Origin: an uncultured Opitutaceae bacterium
GTDB lineage: Bacteria > Verrucomicrobiota > Verrucomicrobiia > Opitutales > Opitutaceae
Assembly (NCBI GenBank): GCA_937942145.1
Contig: CALDFV010000141.1
Coordinates: forward strand, 1 to 41,217
Reading direction: 5' to 3'
Length of the DNA stretch: 41,217 nucleotides
Part shown: positions 14,127 through 37,454 of the stretch, piece by piece
How positions within the stretch are numbered: position 1 is the first letter of the stretch
Layout of the letters: the number at the start of each line of letters is the position of its first letter
The notes under the pieces: model-generated
What the model was told of the DNA's origin: nothing
Database searches by the model: none
The model's input: the letters and a program-made list of their open reading frames with translations, nothing else
Translations under genes and position numbers: made by a program

Positions 14127-14660
14127 ATGGTGGCCAAGGTGAGAAAGCTTGTCGAAGCAGATTTTAATTCACGTGATACCCTGATGCTGGCCCGGGGACT
14201 ATTGGGGAAGCATCTCGTAATTCGCGCGGAGGACCGAGAGCTTTCTCATATGATCACGGAAGTCGAAGCCTATGACGGACCGGAGGACTTGGCCTGCCAC
14301 GCTAGCAAAGGTAGAACGCTTCGTACCGAGCCTCTTTTTGGGTCTCCAGGGTGCTGGTATGTCTACCTCTGCTATGGGATGCATGAGATGCTCAACTTAG
14401 TCACAGGTCCGGTTGACTATCCGGCGGCGATCTTGATCCGAGGACTGGACGCGGTTTCGGGCCCTGGCAGGCTGACCAAGCGATTGGGAGTGGATCGTCG
14501 TTTCAACGCGATGCCGGCGAACACTGAAACCGGAATGTGGCTCGTGGACCGAGGACTTCCGATTGGAGAGGCCAGCGTGCGGGCGACTCCCCGAATTGGC
14601 GTTGACTACGCGGGAGAGGATTGGGCGAATCGGCTCTATCGGTTTGTTCTAGAACACTAG
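14127..14660 (+). CDS. DNA-3-methyladenine glycosylase (AAG/MPG family)
   Basis: Excises alkylated purines in base excision repair. The ATG at 14127 is chosen because AAAGGA lies 6 bases upstream and it begins the conserved domain; the frame extends further upstream to 14061 but into the divergent neighbour's 5' end. The 177-residue product carries the family signatures 'ARGLLGKHLV', 'ITEVEAYDGPEDLACHAS' with the catalytic Glu, 'YVYLCYGMHEMLNLVT', 'AAILIRGLD' and 'GPGRLTKRLG'. Its stop codon overlaps the end of the convergent DUF3108 gene by four bases. Confidence 0.92.
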   Translation: MVAKVRKLVEADFNSRDTLMLARGLLGKHLVIRAEDRELSHMITEVEAYDGPEDLACHASKGRTLRTEPLFGSPGCWYVYLCYGMHEMLNLVTGPVDYPAAILIRGLDAVSGPGRLTKRLGVDRRFNAMPANTETGMWLVDRGLPIGEASVRATPRIGVDYAGEDWANRLYRFVLEH

Positions 14661-15580
14661 TTCGAGCTAGACTGAGCCAAGATCGGGATATCGTTTAATG
14701 TGAACGCCTCGAGCCGCATGGATGCGGTTCCGATGGACGTTTTAACGTCGAGTCGTAAGGGAATGCGGCGATCGTCGGCAGACACCCAAATAGCCATTTT
14801 ACCTCCCTCTCTGAAGATCTTGCTCTGAGGATAGGCGGATACCGGCTCCACGCGAAAGGCCTCGATCTTCCCAAATTGGGTGGTGATGGTTTCGGTTCCT
14901 TTAGCTTCCATTTCAATGAGGTAGAAGCGGCCGTTCGAGCTGATGAAAAGTGGATAAGTACTCCCTTTCTCCAGTTTCCATCCACGAATTTGGAGAATGG
15001 CAGAGGCGTAGTCGAGGGGTGCCGCGTAGGGAAGATCTTTGATCTGGTTCTTTTCCGGTCTCAGTTTATCCACGTGATTCATTTTCCCGGTCTCAAAGTT
15101 GAAACGGGTGATGGTCTCCTTTTCGTTGGATTGGCCCTCGTCGGTGACTCTGTTTTCGAGAATTCGTCCCTCCGTCGAATCAAGAAGGGTATAGCCCTTA
15201 AGCATGAGGGGAAAGACGGCCTTTATGAGACCTGTTGTGCGGGCTTCCGTTTTTACCTCCAGTAACGAAGGGTTTGAATGGTCAGGGTCTTCGGTAGAAA
15301 TTACGATTTCCGCGACCTTTCTAAAAATTCCCCATTGTCCTCGAAACTGGAAGCGCTCTCCGGCATTGAATCCGTCGGCAGTTTTTTTGGGGTCAGGAAA
15401 CTCGCGTTCGGGCCAAACGATTTCCTTTGGCAGATTGGCTTCTGTGTCTTCCCTGATCTCGTTCGGGTTGATTGCGAATGAGCTGGTGGAGAAAACCGAT
15501 AGTAGGAGACACGCAATGAACCCGCATTTTGCATTCAAATGAGGTTTAAGGAGCGAAATTTGGAATCTTCTCTCAAGCAT
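14657..15580 (-). CDS. DUF3108-family secreted protein
   Basis: A 307-residue protein with a signal peptide ('CGFIACLLLSVFSTSSFA'), so it is exported. The mature part matches what I recall of DUF3108: 'NAGERFQFRGQWGIFRKVAEI', an internal 'ETITRFNFETGKMNHVDK', 'PLDYASAILQIRGW', and a C-terminal beta-rich block ending in 'IWVSADDRRIPLRLDVKTSIGTASMRLE'. The family is usually periplasmic and of unknown biochemical function. It is convergent with the glycosylase gene and lies downstream of the exonuclease fusion on the same strand, with 71 bases between them. Confidence 0.8.
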   Translation of the reverse strand: MLERRFQISLLKPHLNAKCGFIACLLLSVFSTSSFAINPNEIREDTEANLPKEIVWPEREFPDPKKTADGFNAGERFQFRGQWGIFRKVAEIVISTEDPDHSNPSLLEVKTEARTTGLIKAVFPLMLKGYTLLDSTEGRILENRVTDEGQSNEKETITRFNFETGKMNHVDKLRPEKNQIKDLPYAAPLDYASAILQIRGWKLEKGSTYPLFISSNGRFYLIEMEAKGTETITTQFGKIEAFRVEPVSAYPQSKIFREGGKMAIWVSADDRRIPLRLDVKTSIGTASMRLEAFTLNDIPILAQSSSN

Positions 15581-15651: not shown

Positions 15652-17922
15652 TTATTTCAGCGAGTACCAGGAAGGTTGCAAAGACAACGGATCATACCTT
15701 TTGGTTGCATCCTTTATGATCAGACCGCCATTTCCCCGATTTTGGGAGTCTCGGAGCATTGATGGCAGCTTCTCTGTGGAATCGACTTTCTGGACAGGAG
15801 AGATCCGGAGCCGGAGATTCACGGAAAAGGTGTCTAGCTCCCGCCTTCGACGGTTTAGAGGAAGGTTGAGAAGGGTGTCCCCATTGCACCAAAATAGATC
15901 GAACAACCAGAGGAGCGTATCGACGTCCTCCCCGATGAACAGATCCTCGACCGGACGCTTCAGGCGCATTTCCAAGTCGCTGTAAGGAAGCGGGCGCTCT
16001 TTCTTCCACGCAACCAGTGTGCCGTCCGCAATATAGTCCTGTGGGATCAATCGGGCTGATTCGGCAATCTCAGGAAACCGGTGGGTGATGCGCTTTCCCT
16101 CTGCGTCGAATAGCTCGACTCGATCGTCCACTTTATGGATTTGGCACCGTAGCCCATCGTGAAGCTCCTCGACCCAAATCGGCGACTGAAACTGGGATAG
16201 AAACTCGAAGTCCATATCCCCCTTTGCCGGCTTTTCCAGTTTCAAAGGAAAGAACAGTTGCAAAGGGATGTAGTCGAGCATGCGGTCGATCGTCGCGTTC
16301 GCAACGCGATTGAGGTCGGCACAGCGTAGATTGGCTCGCCGAACCGCTTCGATGGGTGCTTCGAACCGCTTGGCCAAGCCCTCCTCTATGACGGACTCTT
16401 CGATCGCATTTCCCTGGTTGGAGAGCACGAGCTCAGAAAGCGATTTTCCCTCCCGAGGATCTAGTTTTCGATAGGCTTCGGACAGAAGGGAATGCTGAAA
16501 AACGGGGTTGGGCGACTTCTCCAACGTGTCGAAGAGAACGCGAAAATCTTCGAGTGTCTGCCCGATTTGCGGGTTTGGGTTGAGGAGTGATAGTAAGGCG
16601 GCCTTGGGATCGGCCTCGTGTTGCCGGACCCGTTTGTAGTCGGTCTCGTTTGCGTTCGCGGCGAAGAGGATTGCCTGGCGATTGGTCTTGGTGGTGATGC
16701 TGAGGCTCCGCTGGGAGGCCCGGGCAAATGCGTGTCCAGACAGGAATAGGGCGGCGATGGCAACATCCGTTGGGCCAAGATTGGCAAAATACTCGCTGAC
16801 GATTTCTACCTTTCGCGTGTGGCTCTCGGCTTTGACGGCATTTTCTTTTGCAGTGGTAAAGCTCGAGATCGAATGAGGCGATACATTGGGGTGGCTCTCG
16901 GACTCAGAGGTGCGGGATTCCGACTTTGGAGCTGGATTGATTGGCAACTCCAACGCCAGCTGGTTCTGGGCACCCAATTCGAGGGCATTGATACCGCGAT
17001 CCCGCAAGGTCTGGGCAAACTCCTGGGCGAAACCGTGAGTTGTGTAGACGATCTTTGGGTCCACACGAGCGACGAATTCGAGCAAATCCAGAAAGTCCGC
17101 GTGGTCCGAAAGGGGAAAAGCCCGATCGGAGCCTTTAGAGTGGTGGCGATATGAGTCCAGAGCCCAGCCCGAAAGCATTGCGGTACGGTGGTTGCGGATT
17201 CCGGTTAGCCATTTCGAGTCTTTCGGAAGAGGAGGCGCGATAACGACGCATTCTTTAGCCTCTTCATATCTGAATTCCGAGTACGCAGGAAACGTGAAAC
17301 CGATTTCCTCGCATGCCTGAGTCATCTTCAGTACTTGTGGATGCAGGAGGATTTTCAGGCCACTGCCTTCAAGGCATTTCAACGCCTCTTGAGCTTTTCC
17401 CAGGCTGTATCCGAAAAGCACGGGAATGCGATGATCATCTATCGTTTCATGGCAGAATTGCAGGATCTCCTTCTTGACCTCGGAAATAGGTGGAAAAGCG
17501 TATTTAGGAACGCCATACGTCGTTTCAATAATCAATGTATCTGCTTTGGGTACGATGCACGCCTCTGCGGTTAGATTGGGCCCAAGCTTAAAGTCGCCCG
17601 TGTAGAGGAGCGTCTCACCTTTTTTTTCAAGAAGCAGCATAGACGACCCTGGTATGTGGCCTGCGGGATAGAGCGCTCCCTTTACACTAGGGCTGATCTC
17701 GAAAGGTTCCTGTAATCCATAGGTTTTCCACTTCCGCTTTCCCGGCATGCGGGCTTTCAGTAAGCGGGCAGTTCCTTCTGAGCAGAGCACCGAAGGGTGA
17801 TTGCCAAAATGGTCGAAGTGGGCGTGGGAAATGAAAACGTTTGAAGCGGGCTTCCGCGCGTCCAGATGCCAGTTGATTTCGGGCAGGAAAATCCCGTTCT
17901 TTTTCTCAACGACCCAACTCAT
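15652..17922 (-). CDS. Metallo-beta-lactamase/beta-CASP exonuclease fused to an inactive-looking ATP-dependent DNA ligase region
   Basis: A 756-residue fusion. Residues 1-335 are a ligase-associated-exonuclease-like beta-CASP nuclease with intact metal motifs: 'SHAHFDH' (H33, H35, D37, H38), 'AGHIPGSSML', 'LLYTGDF', 'LSDHADF', 'YTTHG'. After a polar linker, residues about 375-530 resemble the ligase N-terminal helical domain ('DVAIAALFLSGHAFARA'). Residues 535-756 align with the nucleotidyltransferase domain, including 'ITHRFPEI' and 'LFDLFW'. The catalytic residues are replaced: motif I KxDG is L587-H-D-G; motif III DGE is DGT (T635); the motif IV Glu is G732; the first Lys of motif V (WxKxK) is S754. 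The protein ends at motif V, so no OB fold is present. Nuclease activity is plausible; ligation is not. It lies 6 bases after the DoxX gene. Confidence 0.88.
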   Translation of the reverse strand: MSWVVEKKNGIFLPEINWHLDARKPASNVFISHAHFDHFGNHPSVLCSEGTARLLKARMPGKRKWKTYGLQEPFEISPSVKGALYPAGHIPGSSMLLLEKKGETLLYTGDFKLGPNLTAEACIVPKADTLIIETTYGVPKYAFPPISEVKKEILQFCHETIDDHRIPVLFGYSLGKAQEALKCLEGSGLKILLHPQVLKMTQACEEIGFTFPAYSEFRYEEAKECVVIAPPLPKDSKWLTGIRNHRTAMLSGWALDSYRHHSKGSDRAFPLSDHADFLDLLEFVARVDPKIVYTTHGFAQEFAQTLRDRGINALELGAQNQLALELPINPAPKSESRTSESESHPNVSPHSISSFTTAKENAVKAESHTRKVEIVSEYFANLGPTDVAIAALFLSGHAFARASQRSLSITTKTNRQAILFAANANETDYKRVRQHEADPKAALLSLLNPNPQIGQTLEDFRVLFDTLEKSPNPVFQHSLLSEAYRKLDPREGKSLSELVLSNQGNAIEESVIEEGLAKRFEAPIEAVRRANLRCADLNRVANATIDRMLDYIPLQLFFPLKLEKPAKGDMDFEFLSQFQSPIWVEELHDGLRCQIHKVDDRVELFDAEGKRITHRFPEIAESARLIPQDYIADGTLVAWKKERPLPYSDLEMRLKRPVEDLFIGEDVDTLLWLFDLFWCNGDTLLNLPLNRRRRELDTFSVNLRLRISPVQKVDSTEKLPSMLRDSQNRGNGGLIIKDATKRYDPLSLQPSWYSLK

Positions 17923-17928
17923 ATTGGG

Positions 17929-18348
17929 CTAGACGCCACGTCGATCGAGGCTGAGTCGTCCAGGACCGATGAATACAAGTGAAAGTAGAGTAAGGTTGAC
18001 CTGAGCGTACACTACCATGACGTTGTCGATTTCGGGGCTGTGGATAATTAAATTAGCCAGAGCAAAGCCGACGATGGCGGAAAGGAGCAGCCCGATTCCC
18101 CGGGTGAATATTCCCAGAATGAGGAATAATCCACCGACCGACTGAATCACCACGGATGCGATCCCAAAAATGAGGTGGAAGTATGTTATCCCGATCAGAG
18201 AAACGGCGCTTCCAATTCGTTCCCAGCTGTCTGGACCTTCCGCCCAAAGTGGGAAGCCGTGGTAGGCGATGAGACCGCCAACTCCAATGCGGAGGATTAA
18301 AACACCAAAAAAATCGAATCTGCTTAAGCCAGTAAGGGCAACCTTCAT
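17929..18348 (-). CDS. DoxX-family membrane protein
   Basis: A 139-residue inner-membrane protein with four hydrophobic segments. The N-terminal 'ILRIGVGGLIAYHGFPLW' with 'GPDSWERIGSAV' is the typical DoxX start, followed by 'VIQSVGGLFLILGIFTR' and 'NVMVVYAQVNLTLLSLVFIGPGRLSLD' near the C-terminus. DoxX proteins are poorly understood and have been linked to quinone or redox functions. The exonuclease-ligase fusion starts 6 bases after its stop codon, so they should share a transcript; no functional link is obvious. Confidence 0.85.
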   Translation of the reverse strand: MKVALTGLSRFDFFGVLILRIGVGGLIAYHGFPLWAEGPDSWERIGSAVSLIGITYFHLIFGIASVVIQSVGGLFLILGIFTRGIGLLLSAIVGFALANLIIHSPEIDNVMVVYAQVNLTLLSLVFIGPGRLSLDRRGV

Positions 18349-34730: not shown

Positions 34731-35999
34731 TTATTCGGCTTCTCTTGTTCGTTTGAGCTCCATTATGGAAACCCCTTGTTTCTTCGCTACTCTGGACAAG
34801 TCTTCATATTCCGCTTTTCGCCGTTCTTTGCCAGAAGGGGTGGTTACTGTTTTGACTCTGATGGTCCCGAATTTCGTGGAAACGGCTTCTTCGGTCCGGT
34901 CGAGGATTTTACGGCTTACGGGATAATATCGAACACCAATTGCCGTGGTATTTTCGAGTATGAAGTCGCAGACCGATTCGAGGTCTTCATGGCTAGCTAA
35001 AGCGCTGAGCAGGTGGCCGGGCCGGCCCTTTTTCATAAGGGCTTGAGTGAGCGTAAAGTCGATCGCCCCTTGCTCGAGAAGTTGAGCCTGGAAGTCAGAA
35101 CCTAGAAGTTCAGATGATAAATCGTCCAGGTTGGTCTCGATCGAATAGATCGCTGAGTAAGCTTGGCTGATCGTGCCGAGAGAGAGTCGAAGTACATTCG
35201 GCCCAATAAAATCCTTCTTTCCCGGACCGTAGGCGGAACGATCTATCTTCAAGGTTGGTGACTCAAAGATGGGATTGAGGTATTTGAGAATGGCAGCGCC
35301 CGTGGGAGTCACACGTTCCCCCTTCTCGTCTCCTTTGTAGCAGGGAATCCCTTGTAGCAGTTTCGCAGTTGCGGGAGCGGGAATAGGAAGAAGTCCGTGC
35401 TGTGTATTGACCATTCCATGACCTACACAAACGGGTTCCGAATAGGTTGTGAGACTGCCGAGCCGATCGATTAGCACAGCGCAGCCGACAATATCAATGA
35501 TCGAGTCAACGCCACTGATTTCGTGGAAGTGAATCTTCTCAATGGGAATATTGTGTACTTCTGATTCTGCCTTTCCGATGAGCTGGAAAATTTCCTTAGA
35601 AATTTTTCGAGCAGAATCGGTGATATCTGCGTTGTCGATCAGCTCAATAATTTCGCTTAGGTGGCGATGTGCATGGGAGCGATGCGCATGACTATGAGGA
35701 TGATCGTGGCTGTGGGAATGGCTGTGCCCCTCGTCGTGCTTATGGTGGTGATGTGGGTGTTCGTGTTCGTGCTTATGGTCGTGATGCGCGTTGGTTGGTT
35801 CGTTGAGATCGACCACATTCACGTGACGGCATACGATGCCGTTTTTTTCCACACTAGAGATCTCTACGCGCCCGTCGGGAAGATTCAGTTTTTGAGGAAG
35901 CCCCTCGAGGTCATCGTATGCCTCCAGCAGTCCGCAAAGAGCTCCGAGGAACATGTCTCCTGAAAGACCGGAAAATGGCTCGATGTAGAGGTTATTCAT
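34731..35999 (-). CDS. larC: Nickel-pincer cofactor biosynthesis protein LarC
   Basis: Inserts nickel into the pyridinium bisthiocarboxylate mononucleotide to finish the nickel-pincer cofactor. Full length at 422 residues in a single frame, unlike some lactobacilli where larC needs a frameshift. The start 'MNNLYIEPFSGLSGDMFLGALCGLL' is the family signature. Residues about 70-115 are a loop very rich in His and Asp, probably a nickel store. Then come 'IHFHEISGVDSIIDIVG', 'GLLPIPAPATAKLLQG', 'RVTPTGAAILKYL' and the C-terminal 'IETNLDDLSSELLG'. Its ATG overlaps the larB stop (ATGA), so translation is coupled. No LarA target enzyme is in the window. Confidence 0.95.
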   Translation of the reverse strand: MNNLYIEPFSGLSGDMFLGALCGLLEAYDDLEGLPQKLNLPDGRVEISSVEKNGIVCRHVNVVDLNEPTNAHHDHKHEHEHPHHHHKHDEGHSHSHSHDHPHSHAHRSHAHRHLSEIIELIDNADITDSARKISKEIFQLIGKAESEVHNIPIEKIHFHEISGVDSIIDIVGCAVLIDRLGSLTTYSEPVCVGHGMVNTQHGLLPIPAPATAKLLQGIPCYKGDEKGERVTPTGAAILKYLNPIFESPTLKIDRSAYGPGKKDFIGPNVLRLSLGTISQAYSAIYSIETNLDDLSSELLGSDFQAQLLEQGAIDFTLTQALMKKGRPGHLLSALASHEDLESVCDFILENTTAIGVRYYPVSRKILDRTEEAVSTKFGTIRVKTVTTPSGKERRKAEYEDLSRVAKKQGVSIMELKRTREAE

Positions 36000-36652
36000 T
36001 TGGCGTCAATCTGTTTCAAAATCCGGTAGGCTGCCATGGCGGCTCCGTATCCATTGTCTATATTGGTGACCGAAATGCCATTTGCGCAGCTGGACAGCAT
36101 GGCATTCAAGGCTGCCATTCCACCTGTAGCGACTCCGTAACCAACGCTCGATGGCACGGCGATGATGGGCTGGGACAAAAGCCCTCCTACGACACTCGGC
36201 AAAGCTCCCTCAAATCCGGCGACTACGATGAGTGTTCGGCAGGTTTTTATGTCATCCAGACGGTCAAATAGCCTGTGTATTCCGGCTACTCCTACGTCGT
36301 TAATCCGTTTTGCAGGGACGTTTAGCAGATTGAGCGTGTAGTACGCTTCATTGACTACAGGAAGATCCGAACTACCTGCACTTAATATTCCAATGCGAGC
36401 ATTCTTGTCGTCGAGATCATTGGCCTGTAACAAAAAGCACTGGGATACTGGGTCGTAGTGAGCATCAGGAAAATACTCTAGCAGGGCTTGGCCCTTTTCC
36501 GGCTGTACCCTTGTGGCCAGCGCGTTTCTAGACTGAGTTTGATACTCGTTCAGAATTCTTCTTAGCAGGTCTACGGATTTTGAGCTTCCGTAGACCACTT
36601 CGGGGAAGCCTAAGCGTTCTTCCCTGTTGGTATCCAAATTATAGTCATCCAT
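35996..36652 (-). CDS. larB: Nickel-pincer cofactor biosynthesis protein LarB
   Basis: Carboxylates nicotinic acid adenine dinucleotide and hydrolyses its phosphoanhydride in the first step of nickel-pincer cofactor synthesis. The C-terminal 150 residues resemble PurE ('IGILSAGSSDLPVVNEAYYTL', 'VVAGFEGALPSVVGGLLSQPIIAVPSSVGYG' in parts, 'NIDNGYGAAMAAYRI'). The ATG at 36652 ('MDDYNLDTNREERLGFPEVVYG' region) is chosen over the upstream frame extension because the conserved 'REERLGFPEVVYG' comes near the N-terminus in this family. It overlaps larE by 8 bases and larC by 4, a tight operon in the order larE-larB-larC. Confidence 0.93.
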   Translation of the reverse strand: MDDYNLDTNREERLGFPEVVYGSSKSVDLLRRILNEYQTQSRNALATRVQPEKGQALLEYFPDAHYDPVSQCFLLQANDLDDKNARIGILSAGSSDLPVVNEAYYTLNLLNVPAKRINDVGVAGIHRLFDRLDDIKTCRTLIVVAGFEGALPSVVGGLLSQPIIAVPSSVGYGVATGGMAALNAMLSSCANGISVTNIDNGYGAAMAAYRILKQIDAK

Positions 36653-37454
36653 TCGAAGAAATTGCTCGGTTGAGTTTTCCGGAAACCAGACCTTCCTTGT
36701 CGATTGCAACTTTTTTGTAGCCGATTCCCTTTAGGGAGGACTCGATCAGCGGAAAAAGTGATTGGAGTCTTTCGATTTCTGATACAGGGGATTCGATCTT
36801 CGCAAGATCCCCGAAATGGCGTACGCGGACTTCTGGGAAACCGAGGTTGTTCAGCACAATCTCGGCCGATTCAATTTGAGTCAGCTTTTCTTTGGTTACT
36901 TCTTGACCGTAGGGAATTCGAGAGCTGAGACAGGGGCTTGCGGGTTTGTCCCAGACAGGAAGCTCGAAGTGCTTCGCAAGTGCTCTAATATCGTCTTTGC
37001 CGAGCCCACAGTCGGCGAGGGGAGTCAGGATGTTTTGTTCGTTCGCCGCCTGGTGTCCGGGGCGAAAGTCTCCAAGATCGTCTGCGTTAGCGCCATTCAA
37101 AAGCGCAAAGTTGGCGTATTCTGCCTGATGGAGCTCCCGCATCATGCTGTAGAGCGTGTCCTTGCAGTAGTAGCAACGGTTAAACGGGTTGCTCTTGTAT
37201 TCCGCTTTGTCAAGCTCGTCGGTTTGAATAATCCGAAGGGAAATTTCAAACTGCTGGCAGAATCGCTTGGCGATCTCTAGGTCGGCTCGTTTCAAACTGG
37301 GCGAATCGGCGATGATTCCGATGCCTTTTTGACCGAGGAATCTCTTGGATAGGTAGAGAACGAGTGCAGAGTCGACGCCCCCAGAAAAAGCGGTTAGACT
37401 GCCTTCGATCGGTTTAAACCAGGCTTCCAGACGTTTGAGTAGGGTAGCGTTCAT
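36645..37454 (-). CDS. larE: Sulfur transferase LarE
   Basis: ATP-dependent PP-loop enzyme that adds the two sulfurs to the nickel-pincer precursor. The P-loop is 'TAFSGGVDSALVLYL' near residue 21. Two cysteines lie in 'NRCYYCKDTLY' and a third in 'KPASPCLSSRIPYG', the position of the sacrificial cysteine in the Lactobacillus enzyme. A CxxC pair plus this cysteine is also what an Fe-S-type LarE would need, so this may not be a sacrificial enzyme; that is inference. The 269-residue length is usual. It is the first gene of the lar operon, 90 bases downstream of a His-rich small membrane protein gene. Confidence 0.94.
   Translation of the reverse strand: MNATLLKRLEAWFKPIEGSLTAFSGGVDSALVLYLSKRFLGQKGIGIIADSPSLKRADLEIAKRFCQQFEISLRIIQTDELDKAEYKSNPFNRCYYCKDTLYSMMRELHQAEYANFALLNGANADDLGDFRPGHQAANEQNILTPLADCGLGKDDIRALAKHFELPVWDKPASPCLSSRIPYGQEVTKEKLTQIESAEIVLNNLGFPEVRVRHFGDLAKIESPVSEIERLQSLFPLIESSLKGIGYKKVAIDKEGLVSGKLNRAISSNG

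Follow-up and report, generated by a model that had tools for sequence, protein, structure and literature searches.

The locus studied here lies in a stretch of 41,217 nucleotides (hereafter the window) from an uncultured Opitutaceae bacterium (assembly GCA_937942145.1, contig CALDFV010000141.1), and it raises the question of why a ligase that appears unable to ligate would be kept, joined in one open frame to a nuclease that looks active. An initial annotation, made from the sequence alone, had described the gene as an exonuclease fused to a ligase pseudoenzyme retained for DNA binding or nuclease control. We examined the gene by comparison with its relatives, and refer below to fusions whose ligase half has lost its catalytic residues as dead, and to the genus of the window as g1.

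Domain organization of the fusion protein

The fusion gene runs from an ATG start to its stop on the minus strand, which had not been given before, and the open frame of 756 codons noted initially was confirmed, with no internal stops. It divides as follows.

15652..17922, minus strand: whole fusion gene, 756 aa (P0001), from the ORF call and orthologues
16948..17922, minus strand: exonuclease half, residues 1-325 (MBL/beta-CASP, SNM1/TIGR04122-like), metal motifs intact
16828..16947, minus strand: linker, residues 326-365 (pLDDT below 50 at 318-345)
16288..16827, minus strand: ligase DNA-binding domain (DBD, PF04675-like), residues 366-545, with an eroded putative DNA-contact loop at 501-506
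15655..16287, minus strand: ligase adenylation (NTase) domain, residues 546-756, catalytic residues replaced

Pfam and NCBIfam identified the N-terminal part as a beta-lactamase-fold/RMMBL nuclease, with a near full-length match to TIGR04122 (residues 4-317; 209.8 bits, below the cut-off of 325). In the C-terminal part, Pfam matched PF01068 (DNA_ligase_A_M) to residues 574-756 at 89.5 bits, above the cut-off of 26.2, and PF04675 (the DBD) weakly; the PF04679 OB domain had no Pfam match in the protein, whose C terminus is at motif V. The protein scores under the equivalog cut-offs of both TIGR04120 (LigB) and TIGR04122. Domain matches, the alignment and orthologues together confirm, at the level of sequence, the proposed fusion of an exonuclease to a ligase half predicted to be catalytically dead and lacking the OB fold.

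The nuclease half had been said to keep every metal motif, and this holds for all 13 dead proteins, which retain HxHxDH at 33-38, H89, D110, E133, H194, H274 and H296. With these motifs and the predicted fold, the window protein has the defining features of the MBL/beta-CASP superfamily, and its exonuclease half looks active as a beta-CASP DNA nuclease. Relatives of this half that stand alone, about 330 aa long and about 44-52% identical, occur commonly in the family, and one of them (L055) nests among the fused exonucleases, grouping with L107 (support 97/87).

Loss of the catalytic residues and the OB fold

The Lys of motif I (KxDG) is the adenylated nucleophile of ATP-dependent DNA ligases, and the Glu residues of motifs III and IV and the Lys of motif V are catalytic as well. 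We aligned the window protein with 64 full or near-full fusions, giving 65 rows (13 dead, 52 non-dead), of which those cut by contig ends include L088, L124, L121 and L093, and L102 is truncated. Positions 587, 635, 732 and 754 are taken to be those of motifs I, III, IV and V, and 607 that of the motif Ia Arg. The replacements in the window protein, all read from the alignment, are these.

16162..16164, minus strand: motif I position 587, Leu replaces the nucleophilic Lys
16018..16020, minus strand: motif III position 635, Thr replaces Glu
15727..15729, minus strand: motif IV position 732, Gly replaces Glu
15661..15663, minus strand: motif V position 754, Ser replaces the first Lys; the protein stops two residues on

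L587, T635, G732 and S754 thus stand at the catalytic columns, as the initial annotation had placed them, and K587, E635, E732 and K754 are invariant in those of the 52 non-dead rows that have letters there. The motif Ia Arg607 is likewise lost from the window protein. K.DG occurs within the ligase region of every non-dead row (52 of 52) and nowhere in the window protein, so that no KxDG lysine was misplaced in the original reading. A displaced KxDG was also rejected for the dead proteins as a group, where the sole K.DG is a KIDG found where the DBD begins (residue 366 of L036).

The dead proteins do not share one set of substitutions. Residue 587 is Leu in six of the seven g1 proteins and Arg in the seventh (G009), and Glu in all six proteins of a second genus, g20; residue 635 is Thr in six g1 proteins and Leu in one, and Ala or Val in g20; residue 732 is never Glu in dead proteins, being Gly in the window and Asp in G010. 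At residue 754, the six g1 rows with a letter there have Ser or Thr, four g20 proteins have Arg, and two (G029, G223) still have Lys. The four substitutions whose conservation in orthologues the initial annotation proposed to test therefore vary between species and genera, and the conserved feature of the dead orthologues is the absence of catalytic residues rather than specific replacements. Eight other residues of the ligase half (W583, E585, D589, G590, R592, Q594, H596 and K737) show little or no variation among dead and intact proteins; these may be core residues, or may be the trace of residual binding of a nucleotide, DNA or another ligand.

The OB fold is gone as well. PF04679 was found in intact L041 and L094 and in none of six dead proteins scanned, and no clear OB-fold remnant was present in any frame within up to 2.5 kb downstream of the 13 dead genes, in a search that recovered its one positive control. 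Three matches at chance level (L096, L097 and L099; E 0.05 to 0.6) were seen downstream, the best of them on the opposite strand.

The window genome is an 88% complete assembly in 320 contigs, which might point to an assembly or sequencing artefact, but the same state is seen in G010, a single-contig assembly whose protein is 96% identical, and in five congeners, and so reflects neither chance nor an assembly error. Since independent assemblies of 13 species in two genera agree, we rejected a frameshift or assembly artefact, which had been raised at the outset, as next to impossible.

Distribution of dead, intact and broken fusions

Across the family, the protein had matches at E 1e-30 or better in 210 of 252 genomes, many of which matched only its exonuclease half. 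Dead and truncated fusions number at least 13, seven in g1 (G000, the window genome; G010, G009, G006, G002, G003 and G001) and six in g20 (G029, G221, G222, G223, G226 and G227); this is a minimum because further matches (G079, G104, G249, G251 and others) may be fused. The search for orthologues that the initial annotation had suggested thus found the loss of catalytic residues to be common to seven species of one genus and six of another. Apart from G010, the g1 proteins are 56-62% identical to that of the window. Intact fusions of 887-898 aa are present in two g20 genomes (G224, G225) and in both genomes of genus g13 (G022, G168). Beyond the family, full-length fusions were present in other families of the class in a search of 387 phylum genomes drawn from a larger group, and all 17 that were checked keep the motif I Lys and the OB signature word.

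The remaining g1 genomes hold broken copies (G005 and G007) or a piece at a contig end (G004), and no fusion gene was found in G008, which is 85% complete. As the gene is broken in two species and was not found in a third, it appears to be dispensable rather than essential. The G005 copy (L054:6778-7720) has a large deletion and frame breaks, and that of G007 (L046:6477-8771) has frame breaks and stops, with Trp at the position of the motif I Lys. G005 additionally carries a separate canonical exonuclease-ligase-helicase-phosphoesterase cluster (L064).

A fusion in genus g7 (G117, L102:4903-7281) is truncated at the NTase/OB boundary with all its catalytic motifs intact, and is followed by what we take, by appearance, to be a VanZ-like gene and then the start of an Lhr-type gene. 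This truncation may be an early stage of loss, or an assembly join.

Genomic context

Homologue searches identified both neighbours of the fusion gene.

17929..18348, minus strand: DoxX-family gene, 6 bases upstream of the fusion
14657..15580, minus strand: DUF3108 gene, 71 bases downstream of the fusion

A DoxX homologue lies upstream at 12 of the 13 dead loci, the thirteenth being at a contig start, and at all four near intact loci; a DUF3108 homologue lies downstream at 13/13 dead and 3/4 near intact loci. These flanks, common to the window gene and the intact fusions of close genera, identify the dead g1, dead g20 and intact g13/g20 genes as orthologues by position. Convergent with the DUF3108 gene of the window is a DNA-3-methyladenine glycosylase gene (TIGR00567; 14061-14660, plus strand), homologues of which occupy the equivalent place in several related loci, as far as rough picking of neighbours by longest ORF allows.

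A helicase and a phosphoesterase like those of the ligase-associated cluster adjoin the intact fusion in 8 of 15 genomes tested (G023, G016, G013, G014, G146, G207, G265 and G266), with both scoring below curated cut-offs. Neither was found beside the fusion at any of the 13 dead loci, as far as contigs reach, nor beside the four nearest intact fusions (g13/g20). Separation of the gene from the ligase-associated repair cluster seems to have preceded its loss of ligation. NAD-dependent LigA was found in all 17 genomes tested, and the dead fusion is the sole PF01068 match in 11 of 13 dead genomes, the exceptions being G226, with two further matches, and G227, with one. In G226, contig C73 carries a canonical ligase-helicase-phosphoesterase set, and contig C89 has an 858-aa frame for another PF01068 protein.

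One loss or two

To place the losses we compared trees built from rpoB and from the two halves of the fusion (of the 65 rows, 41 for each half, 35 for ligase-half clade tests and 29 for single-domain tests). In the rpoB tree, where the window genome is represented by a fragment of 748 aa, g20 forms a clade (100/98) in which intact G224 splits off first and intact G225 second, ahead of the six dead species (94/87), and g1 groups with g13 (91/88). A union of the dead species, G005 and G007 included, was rejected by rpoB (AU p 9.7e-5), and the exonuclease half agreed (p 0.0044). The exonuclease half of G001 (L040:267-2540) is on a longer end branch than those of its congeners, at 0.63 and 0.58 in two trees.

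Other results fit instead a dead state that arose once and a ligase half that was exchanged afterwards: the ligase-half tree brings all dead proteins together (99/99), and the test on the full ligase half rejects g20 as a clade (p 0.0036). That rejection was lost when the columns conserved in intact rows were left out (p 0.118), and by domain it was weak for the NTase (0.029) and absent for the DBD (0.32). The dead clades also have replacements in common: of 31 columns replaced in both, nine have the same new residue against 2.4 expected from shuffling, a count reached by 1 in 5000 shuffles. Examples of parallel replacement are L746, in 13/13 dead proteins, and, as majority residues, G609, D606, A658 and L723. 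Because rpoB, the exonuclease half and synteny all point to two losses, we disfavour the single origin, and the dead state was probably reached by two separate ligase losses at one orthologous locus, with parallel change.

Such parallel replacement might also be expected if the NTase pocket had been reshaped for binding or catalysis on another ligand. The loss of the Lys, both Glu and the motif Ia Arg leaves no recognisable site for nucleotidyl transfer, however, and common ancestry or plain structural preference could yield the same shared residues; a new chemistry of this kind is very improbable.

Selection on the two halves

Under a codon model, omega for the exonuclease, DBD and NTase was 0.077, 0.073 and 0.058 in dead g1 and 0.043, 0.091 and 0.062 in dead g20, against 0.053, 0.064 and 0.045 in one intact set and 0.012, 0.042 and 0.022 in another, all of these being approximate as absolute values since synonymous sites are near saturation and codon trees are long (lengths 5-37). 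Fixing omega at 1 gave a worse fit by 2dlnL 385-632 in four dead ligase-half sets. The measurement of dN/dS that had been proposed for the ligase half thus returns purifying selection: in both dead clades this half is under strong constraint, about as much as the adjoining nuclease half.

This bears on whether the ligase half is a relic in slow decay, useless since the OB fold was lost and carried along by a useful exonuclease. The broken copies in G005 and G007, the longer branches of the ligase half and an NTase omega slightly above the intact controls would fit such decay, and the G117 truncation, in which the motifs persist, suggests that loss of the OB fold can precede that of the catalytic residues. 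Yet omega in the ligase half is well under 1 and little different from the exonuclease value, and the frames of 13 dead genes are open despite deep divergence within g1. A clean loss of the ligase half also appears to have been available, because the stand-alone L055 nests among fused exonucleases. We therefore regard slow decay as unlikely.

Predicted fold and DNA-contact surface

An AlphaFold2 model built from 50 sequences had a mean pLDDT of 87.5, with a pTM of 0.61 that fixes neither the relative placing of the two halves nor any contact between them. Residues 1-319 of the model align with archaeal CPSF nucleases (Z about 31, rmsd 2.7-2.8), and residues 344-756 with archaeal and human ligases over some 400 residues, the best match being an archaeal DNA ligase (405 residues, Z 37.0, rmsd 3.9). 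Both the nuclease fold and the ligase DBD-NTase fold are thus predicted to be kept in the window protein.

The loop at 501-506 (GDLRIG), presumably a DNA-contact loop, is invariant in intact fusions and eroded in dead ones, strongly so in the window protein, G010, G001 and all six g20 proteins and partially in the four remaining g1 proteins, where GD is retained and Lys replaces Arg504. The mean net charge of the NTase is -9.4 and -10.2 in the two dead clades, compared with -4.5 in the four nearest intact proteins and +1.1 across 50 intact ones; that of the DBD is still positive, at +1.1 and +1.5 against +3.8 in the nearest intact proteins.

These features bear on the main idea of the initial annotation, DNA binding, taken here in the form of a dead DBD-NTase body that reads DNA, binding nicks or ends and aiming the exonuclease at them. 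The two folds predicted to be kept, the positive DBD, the four g1 proteins with a partly preserved loop and the invariant R592 and K737 are all compatible with this. Human Lig4 without catalytic activity is reported to remain able to promote repair in cells (PMC9638927). The erosion of the DBD loop, the acidic NTase, the loss of Arg607 and the lack of an OB fold to close the clamp all speak against DNA reading, which we think rather unlikely though worth keeping in mind. The eroded loop and acidic NTase favour a structural, docking or autoinhibitory role over a DNA-reading one, if not decisively.

Possible role of the ligase remnant

We propose that the dead DBD-NTase half serves the exonuclease as a structural or regulatory body, and give this reading a probability of roughly 0.5. 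The ancestor would have been an active exonuclease-ligase fusion, formed of a ligase-associated exonuclease and a LigB-type ligase. In the genus of the window the ligase function would then have been lost, with the OB fold gone and the adenylation site replaced, leaving a DBD-NTase body that, to judge from its residues, would neither adenylate nor seal and that has seemingly lost part of its DNA-contact surface. The retention of this body may be due to its folding together with the exonuclease, to its stabilising or regulating that enzyme, or to its docking of a partner. The exonuclease half, with its motifs intact, would stay active.

In favour of a structural or regulatory body, omega in the ligase half (0.058-0.091) is comparable with that of the exonuclease half (0.043-0.077) of the same dead proteins. 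In a study of an intact fusion, expression of the nuclease domain apart from the ligase half gave insoluble protein (PMC10140301), which is consistent with a folding role. Against it, stand-alone relatives are common, which means that the exonuclease domain can in general do without a ligase body; the gene is dispensable; erosion of the DBD loop is no more than partial in four of the seven g1 proteins; and the eight ligase-half residues from W583 to K737 are retained. The original pseudoenzyme claim stands in so far as a dead ligase module is retained, conserved and under purifying selection, and is weakened, by the DBD loop and the charge, in its suggestion that the module is kept for DNA binding. 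Nuclease control, offered there as the alternative, may come close to the structural or regulatory role that we favour.

A more specific and more doubtful version is that the ligase was retired twice in parallel, in two genera, with the OB fold removed at the same domain boundary and catalytic and DNA-contact residues replaced, several by the same residue, and that the acidified body, preserved by selection, became a built-in regulator of the SNM1-type exonuclease. Such a regulator could be, for example, an autoinhibitory or docking module, a possibility that we put forward tentatively.

Relation to known systems

Pseudoenzymes are familiar from other classes of enzyme. In the open-access literature searched we found no DNA ligase pseudoenzyme of natural origin, nor any report of a dead, truncated nuclease-ligase fusion. 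An active nuclease-ligase fusion is known from Opitutus terrae (OTER_RS15935) and from Antarctic Dry Valley metagenomes (DV-1-1-Nuc-Lig; PMC10140301). It has RMMBL nuclease, DNA_ligase_A_N and DNA_ligase_A_M in the same order as in the window protein; DV-1-1 differs in having DNA_ligase_A_C (OB) and a ligase half active on nicks, whereas the window protein lacks the OB domain and the catalytic residues (PMC10140301). The window protein thus has the nuclease, DBD and NTase architecture of the Opitutus-type fusion, the likeness to the O. terrae protein being drawn from its description, and without an OB domain or an intact ligase site it would be a derived variant rather than a typical member. 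The earlier phrase 'new class of repair nuclease' is too strong, given that a nuclease-ligase fusion is already published (PMC10140301). The intact fusion is known, then, and what appears from sequence to be new is the inactivation and truncation of the ligase, that is, a ligase turned pseudoenzyme.

Other known systems share parts of the design. The two halves are homologous to two members of the cluster of TIGR04122, TIGR04120, the Lhr-type helicase TIGR04121 and the phosphoesterase TIGR04123, but the window gene adjoins DoxX and DUF3108 genes instead of the helicase and phosphoesterase. Archaeal and eukaryotic DNA ligase I (Pyrococcus ligase, LIG1) shares the DBD and NTase folds at about 20% identity and differs in having the OB fold, the KxDG Lys and the Glu of motifs III and IV. 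SNM1/DCLRE1 and other beta-CASP nucleases have the same fold and metal motifs as the exonuclease half, which is set apart by its fusion to a ligase remnant.

With intact, dead and broken versions at one orthologous locus, a role of the ligase body other than ligation can be tested by direct comparison. The locus also advises caution in calling PF01068 matches ligases, as in 11 of 13 dead genomes the only such match lacks the residues of the classical mechanism. Elsewhere on the window, three adjacent genes on the minus strand (34731-37454) look from their sequence like larC, larB and larE of nickel-pincer cofactor synthesis.
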